The notes under the pieces: model-generated
Databases searched by the model: none
What the model was told of the DNA's origin: nothing
The model's input: the letters and a program-made list of their open reading frames with translations, nothing else
Shown here: piece after piece, positions 32,749-44,711 of the stretch
How the letters are laid out: each line of letters starts with the position of its first letter
Position numbering within the stretch: position 1 is the stretch's first letter
Position numbers and translations under genes: made by a program
From: Micromonospora sp. M71_S20
GTDB taxonomy: Bacteria; Actinomycetota; Actinomycetes; Mycobacteriales; Micromonosporaceae
Direction: 5' to 3'
DNA: 64,000 nt
Assembly (NCBI RefSeq): GCF_003664255.1
Contig: NZ_RCCV01000001.1
Span: 2,728,001-2,792,000, forward strand

Positions 32749-33552
32749 TCACACGACGGCCAGCGGGCGTACGGGCGAGCCCGTGCCGCCGACGATCGGC
32801 AGCGGAGCCAGGACAAACAGAAACTCGTTCACGCCCGCCTCCGCCAGCGAGTCCAGCCGCAGGTGTTCGACGATGTAGATGCCCGCCTCCACCAGCAGCA
32901 GGCGGTGGACCGGCAGCACCCGGAGCCCGGCGCCGGGAGGGATCTGCTCGTAGGCGGTGGTGTCCGCCCCCGTCAGGGCGACCCCGTGCTCCGCGAGCCA
33001 GGCCGCGCCGGAGGGGTCGACGCCGGGCACCCCCGTGTCGAGGCCCAGGTAGGCCGTCGGACTTGTCCAGTGCCGGGCCCAGCCGGTACGGACCAGCGCC
33101 ACGTCGCCCGCGCCCAGCCGCACGCCGGTGCGCCGCAGGCACCGTTCGAGGTCGTCGGCGGTCACGCCGTACCCGCCGGGAAGCACGTCGACCCCGTGGA
33201 CCGAGGCGACGTCCAGCAGCACCCCCCGCCGGACGAGAGGCGGAATCGTCTCGGTGCCGTGTACGCGGAACCGGCCACCCGACTGCGCCTCGGCAGCGTC
33301 GTGTCCACCGTGCAGCAGCCCGTCCTGCGAGATGTGCGACAACGCGTCGACGTGGGTCCCGACGTGCCCGCCGGTGACGATCAGCTCGCCGGCCGACGAG
33401 CCCCCGTCGGCCCGCACCACGTCGCCGTGCCGGCGGAGCAGGGCCAGGCGGAATCCCGGGTGGTTCGGCGCGCAGGGCATCCCCTCCTCGAACGGCTGGC
33501 TGAGGTCGTGGATGGTGACGCCCGCGGAGACGGCGTCCAGGAGTGCGGTCAT
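32749..33552 (-). CDS. Cyclase family protein, kynurenine-formamidase-like metal hydrolase
   Basis: This 267-residue enzyme shows the metal-binding signature GGHVGTHVDALSHISQDG (HxGTHxDxxxH) and HDLSQPFEEGMP at the N-terminus, placing it in the cyclase/kynurenine formamidase family (PF04199). These enzymes hydrolyse formamides, esters or lactams, or dehydrate sugars. ATG 33552 has AGGA upstream. It is divergent from the first ATP-grasp-like gene and probably belongs to the biosynthetic cluster, where it could hydrolyse or cyclise an intermediate. That role is inferred. Confidence 0.85.
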   Translation of the reverse strand: MTALLDAVSAGVTIHDLSQPFEEGMPCAPNHPGFRLALLRRHGDVVRADGGSSAGELIVTGGHVGTHVDALSHISQDGLLHGGHDAAEAQSGGRFRVHGTETIPPLVRRGVLLDVASVHGVDVLPGGYGVTADDLERCLRRTGVRLGAGDVALVRTGWARHWTSPTAYLGLDTGVPGVDPSGAAWLAEHGVALTGADTTAYEQIPPGAGLRVLPVHRLLLVEAGIYIVEHLRLDSLAEAGVNEFLFVLAPLPIVGGTGSPVRPLAVV

Positions 33553-33783
33553 GGTGGTGATCCTGTCTCTGCGGGGATGACGGATGCGTACCGGGCCGAT
33601 TCCGGGTGCGGGTCCCGCGGATGATTCTCCGGTAATGGTTCCGCCGCGCTTCGTGTTCGGCATGCGGGCGCGCCCGAAAATCGAGATTGCGTCGGCCGGT
33701 GTCGTCGCCGTCGACCGGATGCCGGCCGGCACTGTACTCGGCGACCCCACGCCGGTCGACCCCTGAAATGTTCGACACTTACC
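33553..33783. promoter_or_regulatory. Divergent promoter region of the ATP-grasp cluster
   Basis: The 231 bases between the cyclase gene and the first ATP-grasp-like gene hold no supported frame. Close to the GTG at 33784, GACAC (33774-33778) is inverted as GTGTC (33784-33788) with a five-base spacer, overlapping the start codon. No ribosome binding site precedes 33784, so translation may be leaderless. GC content drops here and in the following gene relative to the surroundings. Confidence 0.35.
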
Positions 33784-43067: not shown

Positions 43068-43280
43068 CGTGCCCTCCTCGCTTGTGGGACCGGGCGGAGC
43101 GCTCCCTGAAGCCCGCCAGGACAGGCCTTCGCCGACGAGGGGCATCCAGTCGACGCGGGCCTATGATCATCGAATACCGTGTATCGCGCAACGGGAAGAC
43201 GACCGAACCCCTGTGCCTCCCCCTATACGGGTGCCAGCTCCTCGTGCAGGTGCCTCAGGAGCCGGAACCCACGACCAACG

Positions 43281-44711
43281 TCAACTCGACGCGAGCGACG
43301 GTACGGTGCGGGCCAGGCCATCGTCCGGCTCACCGGCGTCCACGAACGGCACCGCCAATCTCTCCGGCACCCCCATGTTGCGGGCGAACACCCCGAGCCG
43401 GCGCTGCCAGGCGGCCATGTCGGACGGTGGCGCGATCGGCACGGTGGCGCGGGCGACCAGCTCTGCGTGCTCGTCGCGATCCGCGTTGCCGGTGGCGATC
43501 GAGTGCCGGAGGGCCGCCTCCAGATCGCGCTGCGCGTTGACGACGCACATCGTCCACTTGAGCAGGACCGTCGCGGTGCAACCAGGTGCGACGTCGAGCA
43601 CCCCGGCGTTGCGACGGAGCCGCGACGAGTCGGTGGTGTTGATCGCCACCTTGAGGTGGGCGGACACCACCTCGGCGCCCCGCACCTCCGGATACCACTG
43701 GCTGAGCTGGCGGAGCGCCAGTTCGGCGCGCTCCGTCGCCTCGGGGTGACCGTTGCGCAGGTAGTGACGGAAGTCGTCGGGCAGCGCATAGGTCGTCGGG
43801 TCGACGCGATGCACCGCGATGTGGGCCGCCGGGGGGTAGTAGACGAGCGCGGTGTCCCGACTGAACGGGCTCAGCATGCCGCCGTACTCGTCTTCGAGCT
43901 TCAGGCACGTGTAGTCCCTCGTGGTGCCGTCGGGCAGGTCCACGAAGAGGATCTGGCGCAGAGCCATGTAGATGGACGGCAACGCGAGCGACGGGTTGAG
44001 GCGGCGAGCCATCGCCGGGGTCTCGGTGGCGGCACAGAGACTCACCTGGTCACCGACGACCGTCTTCCGGAGACCGTCCTCGACGTACTCCACCTGGTAG
44101 GTGCCGTCGGAGCGGCGGCTCACCTCGGTCACCTCGGCGCCGCCGCGTACCTCGACGCCGCAGCGACGCAGCTCCTGGTCGAGGAGCGCGGTGACGACGA
44201 CCGGGTTGATGCCCCGCTGCGGGGTGATGAAGGTGGCACCGACGTCGGAGATCCCCTCCGGTGCCGGGATCTCGCGGCAGACCTGCTCCGGTGCGCCGAA
44301 CAGCGCGTTGGCCGGGTCCTCGGCGCACCGCTGCGCGTAACGGTCCTGGATGACCCGCATGTTGTCCCGGCACTGGCCGATGATGTCCGTGCCGCTGTCC
44401 TGCATGGCCCGGGAGGCGATGACCCGGCTGTGGTCCTTGCCACCGAAGACGAGGTCGGGGAAGAAGCGTTCGTTGACCAGTCGCCCGTCGAAGCAGTCCC
44501 GGGCGCTCTGCGGATCGAACGGATACTCGGCACCGCTGTGGTTCTCGCTGACGATGTTGCTGGCCCCCGTGCAGATCGGGTGGGCCTCGGGGGACCGGGC
44601 CTCGGCCCGCTCCAGCAGAAGGACCCGGTATCCCGCGCGTCTGCGCATGATCGCGGCCAGGCAGCCCGCGATACCTCCGCCGATCACGATGTGCAGCTCG
44701 GTTCGCTTCAC
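43281..44711 (-). CDS. FAD-dependent oxidoreductase (DAO/lycopene-cyclase-like fold)
   Basis: The gene encodes 476 residues starting at GTG 44711, with AGGGA eight bases upstream. The dinucleotide-binding motif LHIVIGGGIAGCLAAIMRRR is at the N-terminus, and GDQVSLCAATETPAMARRL is in the middle. FITPQRGINPVVVTALLDQE is the strand-helix that precedes FAD binding in flavin amine oxidase-type proteins. Candidate reactions are oxidation or desaturation of an amino acid unit. It is the first gene of the minus-strand run and is divergent from a GlcD-like gene. Substrate unknown. Confidence 0.83.
   Translation of the reverse strand: MKRTELHIVIGGGIAGCLAAIMRRRAGYRVLLLERAEARSPEAHPICTGASNIVSENHSGAEYPFDPQSARDCFDGRLVNERFFPDLVFGGKDHSRVIASRAMQDSGTDIIGQCRDNMRVIQDRYAQRCAEDPANALFGAPEQVCREIPAPEGISDVGATFITPQRGINPVVVTALLDQELRRCGVEVRGGAEVTEVSRRSDGTYQVEYVEDGLRKTVVGDQVSLCAATETPAMARRLNPSLALPSIYMALRQILFVDLPDGTTRDYTCLKLEDEYGGMLSPFSRDTALVYYPPAAHIAVHRVDPTTYALPDDFRHYLRNGHPEATERAELALRQLSQWYPEVRGAEVVSAHLKVAINTTDSSRLRRNAGVLDVAPGCTATVLLKWTMCVVNAQRDLEAALRHSIATGNADRDEHAELVARATVPIAPPSDMAAWQRRLGVFARNMGVPERLAVPFVDAGEPDDGLARTVPSLASS

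Follow-up and report, generated by a model that had tools for sequence, protein, structure and literature searches.

A probable azetidine-type peptide or amide cluster without nonribosomal peptide synthetases in a tRNA-Ser-linked island of Micromonospora sp. M71_S20

The locus and the limits of the island

Within a 64,000-nt window of the genome of Micromonospora sp. M71_S20 (GCF_003664255.1, NZ_RCCV01000001.1, positions 2,728,001-2,792,000, forward strand; by window we mean this whole stretch, to which all coordinates refer), ten genes at 32749-44711 encode amino acid-modifying enzymes, ATP-grasp ligases and a predicted exporter. An earlier reading of the bare DNA (the first-pass annotation) had claimed these ten genes as one set, and the set is real: all are open (gene calling by codon-position bias) and under purifying selection, and most of the earlier gene placings are upheld by Pfam and NCBIfam. 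The features of the locus, including two further genes on its right side, are listed below (GSH, glutathione; GSP, glutathionylspermidine; MFS, major facilitator superfamily; 2OG, 2-oxoglutarate; HDO, haem-oxygenase-like diiron oxidase; FAD, flavin adenine dinucleotide).

32043..32130, + strand: tRNA-Ser(UGA), found by ARAGORN; left edge of the variable island
32749..33552, - strand: cyclase/kynurenine-formamidase-fold metal hydrolase (PF04199), with an HxGTHxD motif
33889..35253, + strand: GSH/GSP-synthetase-fold carboxylate-amine ligase (ligase A), with RxD..ExN and two invariant lysines present
35271..36098, + strand: PhzF-fold isomerase, with Glu46, His73 and Asp200 retained
36088..37323, - strand: predicted MFS exporter (Pfam/NCBIfam)
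37416..38777, - strand: GSH/GSP-synthetase-fold ligase (ligase B), with the Asn of ExN replaced by Gly
38853..40118, - strand: classical ATP-grasp L-amino-acid ligase (PRK07206, DdaF-like; L-amino acid ligase 30vh, 218 bits)
40127..40960, - strand: Fe(II)/2OG cyclic amino acid hydroxylase of the proline cis-4-hydroxylase family (4p7w, 158 bits, residues 5-275)
41040..42146, - strand: PolE-family (DUF6421) Fe/pterin amino acid desaturase (44.2 bits), with an HEFHH motif
42267..43067, - strand: PolF-family (DUF6202) HDO diiron azetidine synthase (292.8 bits)
43281..44711, - strand: FAD-dependent oxidase of the DAO superfamily (Pfam)
45048..46448, + strand: extra GlcD-like 2-hydroxyacid dehydrogenase, a second gene copy in the genome
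46563..47726, + strand: second classical ATP-grasp ligase, PRK07206 type

The genes from 44711 to 36088 form a same-strand run, within which the hydroxylase lies 8 bases from the classical ligase, while the PhzF gene, on the opposite strand to this run, starts 17 bases after ligase A. No nonribosomal peptide synthetase (NRPS) domain was found in the 20 proteins of 28198-49118 (Pfam/NCBIfam) and four ligases are present, which bears out the earlier inference of an NRPS-free set built on ATP-grasp ligases. On the grounds of protein families, motifs, predicted folds, linkage and selection, we consider it fairly likely that the locus directs the NRPS-independent synthesis of a small peptide or amide containing an azetidine.

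DUF6202 is carried by 3 of 160 Micromonospora genomes (that of the window among them), and in the other two all 12 genes of 32749-47726 are syntenic, about 92-94% identical at the DNA level and stop-free, with dN/dS values of 0.09-0.45; the cluster genes are under purifying selection in the three genomes that have them. In four of five relatives lacking the island, a stretch of 0.8-7 kb of other DNA connects the end of the tRNA-Ser gene (32130) with a phosphatidylethanolamine-binding protein gene near 47.8 kb (in the fifth, the right flank was not seen within 12.9 kb). Because of the 12-gene synteny, these flank junctions and the status of the GlcD-like gene as a second copy (the other, on contig C2, is 88% identical and looks genus-conserved), we take the unit to be an island of ~15.6 kb at the tRNA-Ser gene (about 32.15-47.8 kb), which exceeds the reported ten genes and adds to them a GlcD-like oxidase and a fourth ligase. 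The G+C content is 68-73% across 32-48 kb (2-kb steps) versus 74-77% in the 16 kb leftward, and since the right flank is mixed (68-79%), composition is weak evidence for the island. Empty sites, together with partial tRNA copies present in G077 and G151, suggest integration at the tRNA site; at the distal end of the window's island no direct repeat of the tRNA 3' terminus was found, the proteins scanned by Pfam/NCBIfam around it included no recognisable integrase, and the DUF6202 protein had no match among plasmids. Across the genus, the tRNA-Ser(UGA) site (window 32043-32150; L069, L038) is a hot spot for cargo: in the relatives read, the tRNA is followed by other DNA. The FAD enzyme has a match in 2 of 394 genomes of the class (E<=1e-15, the window's own genome counted), and an informative solved relative of it was not found.

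The PolE/PolF pair and its putative tailoring enzymes

The protein that had been annotated as a possible HDO belongs to DUF6202, the PolF family (cut-off 25 bits), and its neighbour, earlier described as an HExxH protein of no known kind, is identifiable as a member of DUF6421, the PolE family (cut-off 25 bits). According to the excerpts of PMC12614342 used here, PolF is an HDO diiron enzyme that converts L-Ile or L-Val through a 3,4-dehydro form into an azetidine amino acid, PolE is an Fe/pterin L-Ile desaturase (and a desaturase only) that feeds it, and the two make polyoximic acid in the polyoxin pathway, as published in 2025; the same excerpts state that azetidine is formed by PolF alone, with PolE increasing the flux, and that PolF gives dehydro, hydroxy and aziridine forms as well. 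The statement that the gene set matches no known pathway has therefore to be revised, as both families are characterised and point to an Ile/Val-derived azetidine amino acid (PMC12614342, in excerpt).

The window PolF matches DUF6202 over its whole length, is 39-62% identical to the 29 alignment rows beyond that of M. peucetia, and belongs to a family whose profile retrieves the solved PolF structures. Thr62 of PolF, given as a substrate contact in the excerpts of PMC12614342, is invariant across 31 DUF6202 proteins (T60 in the window), as are D101, D102, H122, H212 and H219 (31/31), and E175, D180, D210 and E216 are kept in 30/31; we count these His/Asp/Glu positions as conserved residues, not as proven iron ligands. 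In the PolE homologue, HEFHH is followed by a Glu 22-23 residues on, which fits the published motif HE/DxxHx(21-23)E (PMC12614342, in excerpt).

The hydroxylase, placed earlier as an AspH-fold oxygenase (its hydroxylase role stands, its placing is here that of a proline cis-4-hydroxylase relative), is homologous over its whole length to L-proline cis-4-hydroxylase, its best solved relative, and keeps a PHRDYLEL motif (HxD) and the distal His. Both cisP3H and cisP4H are reported, in the part of PMC6958525 considered, to hydroxylate azetidine-2-carboxylate. From its linkage to PolF, the substrate of the window enzyme is probably not proline itself.

The PhzF-fold protein matches the dihydro-hydroxyanthranilate isomerase PhzF (chain 1u1v) at 39 bits and retains all three residues that we take to be the catalytic positions of PhzF. 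A phenazine isomerase proper was ruled out, no phenazine operon genes being recognised among the 20 neighbouring proteins. Copies of PhzF linked to PolF are 50-67% identical to that of the window, as against at most 48% for the other PhzF matches (E<=1e-30, 47 other genomes of 195), and no PolF was found at 29 of those other places (2.5-3.8 kb examined around each). The six PolF-linked PhzFs form one group in the tree (support 86/92; 88% of bootstrap trees), a grouping of moderate strength. Pfam and NCBIfam support the earlier idea that the set includes an isomerase and a hydroxylase that work on an amino acid.

ATP-grasp ligases and a proposed pathway

The four ligases of the island comprise two of GSH/GSP-synthetase fold (A and B) and two classical ones of dapdiamide type. 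A sequence search of the PDB with both GSP-type ligases returned chance-like rows only; fold comparison placed them, the predicted folds matching over nearly their full length, with the invariant lysines and glycine positions present. The closest folds are YgiC, YjfC and the homoglutathione and GSP synthetases; the fold is also shared by Cp1B, and sequence identity to these proteins is 10-15%. The RxD..ExN motif, which we presume to serve the metal site, is complete in ligase A. Cp1B is the E-64 pseudodipeptide ligase, whose fold can accept a non-amino acid as electrophile (PMC12568646, in excerpt), and an acyl cap is therefore possible in the product of the cluster. The two classical ligases fall in the same broad subfamily as DdaF (PRK07206) and score 187 and 167 bits against the DdaF model, far below the NCBIfam equivalog cut-off of 840, by which dapdiamide itself was ruled out.

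Neighbourhoods of ligase-B relatives were taken from 14 of the 18 matching genomes (one being the window's own; the weak G086, G255, G484 and G489 were left out): classical ATP-grasp genes lie in 10 of these 14 loci and MFS genes in 8, and no PolF match was obtained among their called genes. Homologues of the 46563-47726 ligase (53-56% identical) adjoin a ligase-B homologue in L106 and L107. A homologue of class I (Met-type) tRNA synthetases stands beside ligase-B-like/ATP-grasp clusters at L107:1895-3505 (Pfam) and L109:13909-15288 (BLAST group), and is possibly a self-resistance copy. In G077 and G084 (L120/L121, L122/L123) a second ligase-B gene, 64% identical, is found near NRPS-like genes, accompanied in G084 by glutamate-mutase-like genes (judged by eye) and in G077 by a called open reading frame of 63 amino acids that is 78% identical to the 38853-40118 ligase. 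Another ligase-A-like/ligase-B-like pair is found within one genome (G000:C1:4383029-4384228 and 4391898-4393016; L112, L105), its two genes ~8 kb apart and near NRPS-like genes (BLAST).

Our inferences on the substrate, ligation order, partner acids, PhzF step and final product are as follows. The PolE-type desaturase and PolF-type HDO would convert L-Ile (or L-Val) into a 3,4-dehydro amino acid, from which PolF would form a 3-alkylidene-azetidine-2-carboxylate; this four-membered proline analogue may then undergo a double-bond shift or epimerisation by the PhzF isomerase and hydroxylation by the proline-cis-4-hydroxylase-like oxygenase. The two GSH/GSP-fold and two classical ligases would join the azetidine unit to other amino acids or to an acyl cap and the MFS protein would export the product, while the FAD oxidase, the GlcD-like enzyme and the cyclase-family hydrolase might, as a guess, make or trim partner units. 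The best reading of the product is accordingly a small exported peptide or amide with an isomerised and/or hydroxylated azetidine amino acid.

Parts of this scheme have precedents. The polyoxin branch shares with the window two enzyme families and their conserved motifs, and the PolE and PolF genes are neighbours in the window; the window cluster differs in adding PhzF, the cis-4-hydroxylase-like enzyme and four ligases, and a polyoxin-type nucleoside cluster was ruled out, since no nucleoside-building genes were recognised among the same 20 proteins. The mangotoxin cluster (MboABCDEF) likewise combines an HDO with two ATP-grasp amino acid ligases and no NRPS, but MboA makes an alkyne on a tripeptide, whereas the window HDO is of the azetidine-forming DUF6202 family. 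In the excerpts of PMC13185094 used here, mangotoxin was found by mining for HDO with ATP-grasp genes, and its authors put the number of unique clusters that have both an HDO and an ATP-grasp ligase at 25 or more. Already known, then, are both the NRPS-free pairing of HDO and ATP-grasp ligase (mangotoxin) and the azetidine enzymes (polyoxin); a union of PolE/PolF azetidine enzymes with PhzF, a cis-4-hydroxylase relative and ligases was not found described in the open-licence literature, whose coverage misses Shen et al. 2025 and Gong et al. 2025 on PolF and the mangotoxin cluster list.

Azetidine amino acids are valued in drug chemistry. The cluster suggests that the PolE/PolF route is a portable module to which isomerisation and hydroxylation can be added as further tailoring. 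It also suggests that stand-alone ligases, whose reconstitution should be simpler than that of an NRPS, can join azetidine residues; PhzF-fold isomerases gain a concrete new substrate hypothesis.

Recurrence of PolF-linked genes and alternative readings

A scan of genome contigs with the DUF6202 alignment yielded 30 loci (up to 10 kb on each side, tblastn E<=1e-4; each counted once, with contig-end cuts in e.g. L007, L015, L018, L023, L025, L028, L029, L031 and L032, and with L029 and L030 as near copies). PolE occurs in 19 of these, the hydroxylase in 8 and PhzF in 5, all five also with the hydroxylase: PolF, PhzF and hydroxylase share a single run in Actinomadura (L004), Streptosporangium (L005) and Sphingomonas (L029, L030), and in Kutzneria (L022) all three fall inside a stretch of about 9 kb. 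The runs of L004 (Pfam) and L005 (BLAST group) also include a gene of the proline racemase family, as expected for a proline-like substrate. Co-listing of PolF and ligase-A homologues extends to three other sources: Amycolatopsis sp. NPDC051061 (same source and same longest-contig size, 231889), a JGI contig (same size, 17547) and another metagenome contig (22137), a ligase-B homologue being listed at this last size too; these sizes suggest that the genes are co-located. The Amycolatopsis ligase-A homologue gave no match in 390 genomes of the family of G406 (presumably Pseudonocardiaceae), a negative that carries no weight. As to whether neighbouring genomes keep the genes apart, the first-pass question, they are thus together as a whole block in three Micromonospora genomes and in part in the loci above, and apart in the respects given next.

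Several observations weigh against the proposed cluster function. Ligases A and B, the FAD enzyme, the cyclase and the GlcD copy occur in 0 of the 30 PolF loci, a full-length classical ligase in 2 (L015, L027; L004 has a partial, weak match of 30%), and NRPS domains are present in proteins of the PhzF-linked loci L004, L005, L022 and L029. Ligase B may be altered, judging from the Gly for Asn in its ExN, a change found also in three close relatives (4/23 rows, against Asn in 19/23). The PhzF tree has long branches, and in the PolF tree (which omits the partial L032 row) the PhzF-linked PolFs do not group as one clade (5 changes; a single change in 0% of bootstraps). A single origin of these PolFs is not supported; either the linkage was probably gained or lost repeatedly or the PolF tree lacks resolution. 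Since the PhzF-linked PolFs are not one clade and the chemistry is backed by residue conservation only, the window PolF could have another specificity.

In an unlikely alternative, the PolE/PolF homologues would go no further than a 3,4-dehydro, hydroxylated or aziridine amino acid. PhzF would then move the alkene, the oxygenase would have an open-chain residue as the target of its hydroxylation, and the ligases would act by the same logic with no azetidine. The other products of PolF and the desaturase-only activity of PolE (PMC12614342, in excerpt) would allow it, as would the identity values above and the position of the window PolF outside the group of the characterised enzyme; the retained Thr62 and His/Asp/Glu positions, the proline-type (cyclic-substrate) hydroxylase and the proline-racemase relative beside the module in L004 and L005 argue for the azetidine. 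It is still less probable, in our view, that two separate pathways share the tRNA hot spot, namely one for the azetidine amino acid (hydroxylase, PolE, PolF, PhzF) and another, unrelated to it, for an ATP-grasp peptide (ligases, MFS). Ligase-B relatives do keep company with classical ATP-grasp (10/14) and MFS (8/14) genes with no PolF match, ligases A and B are missing from PolF-PhzF loci over the stretches examined, and the site takes other cargo; yet in the window the two sets are interleaved, down to the 8-base hydroxylase-ligase and 17-base ligase A-PhzF gaps, and PolF is co-listed with ligase A in the three other sources (in one also with ligase B). The nearest folds (YgiC, YjfC, homoglutathione and GSP synthetases) would suit ligases whose product, instead of being exported as a peptide antibiotic, stays unsecreted or linked to the cell as a GSP- or polyamine-like conjugate, but we hold this to be highly improbable given the MFS gene inside the same run, the DdaF-like classical ligases and the sharing of the fold by Cp1B of the E-64 pathway.

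Returning to the azetidine peptide or amide that we favour, we tentatively propose, with more doubt than confidence, that PolF, a dedicated PhzF and the cis-4-hydroxylase-like oxygenase are a mobile module common to NRPS clusters and to this ligase-only cluster. In that module, 3-alkylidene-azetidine-2-carboxylate would have its exocyclic double bond shifted by PhzF and its ring then hydroxylated by the oxygenase, which would yield a novel class of azetidine residue for GSP-type ligases to build into peptides.

Other PolF loci show further arrangements. In the proteobacterial L023-L027 (Burkholderia, Paraburkholderia, a Thiomonas metagenome-assembled genome (MAG), Pseudoduganella and a Proteobacteria MAG), for which no PolE match was obtained at the same threshold, PolF precedes genes grouped with the PhyH oxygenase and fatty-acid-desaturase-like gene of Pseudoduganella, where an ATP-grasp ligase sits between PolF and these two. 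The Sphingomonas NRPS beside PolF, PhzF and hydroxylase (L029:1-5160) has a start weakly like ATP-grasp_4 (26.3 bits, cut-off 27) and is a possible ligase-NRPS fusion. Thirteen Streptomyces loci (L008-L010, L013, L014, L016-L021, L031, L033) are a recurrent azetidine-type NRPS cluster, in which the gene after PolE-PolF belongs to a single BLAST group (its L009 member is a GNAT by Pfam), and most of which hold genes grouped with the aldo/keto reductase, RimK-type ATP-grasp, stand-alone A domain, MFS, DAO oxidase and NRPS genes of L009.

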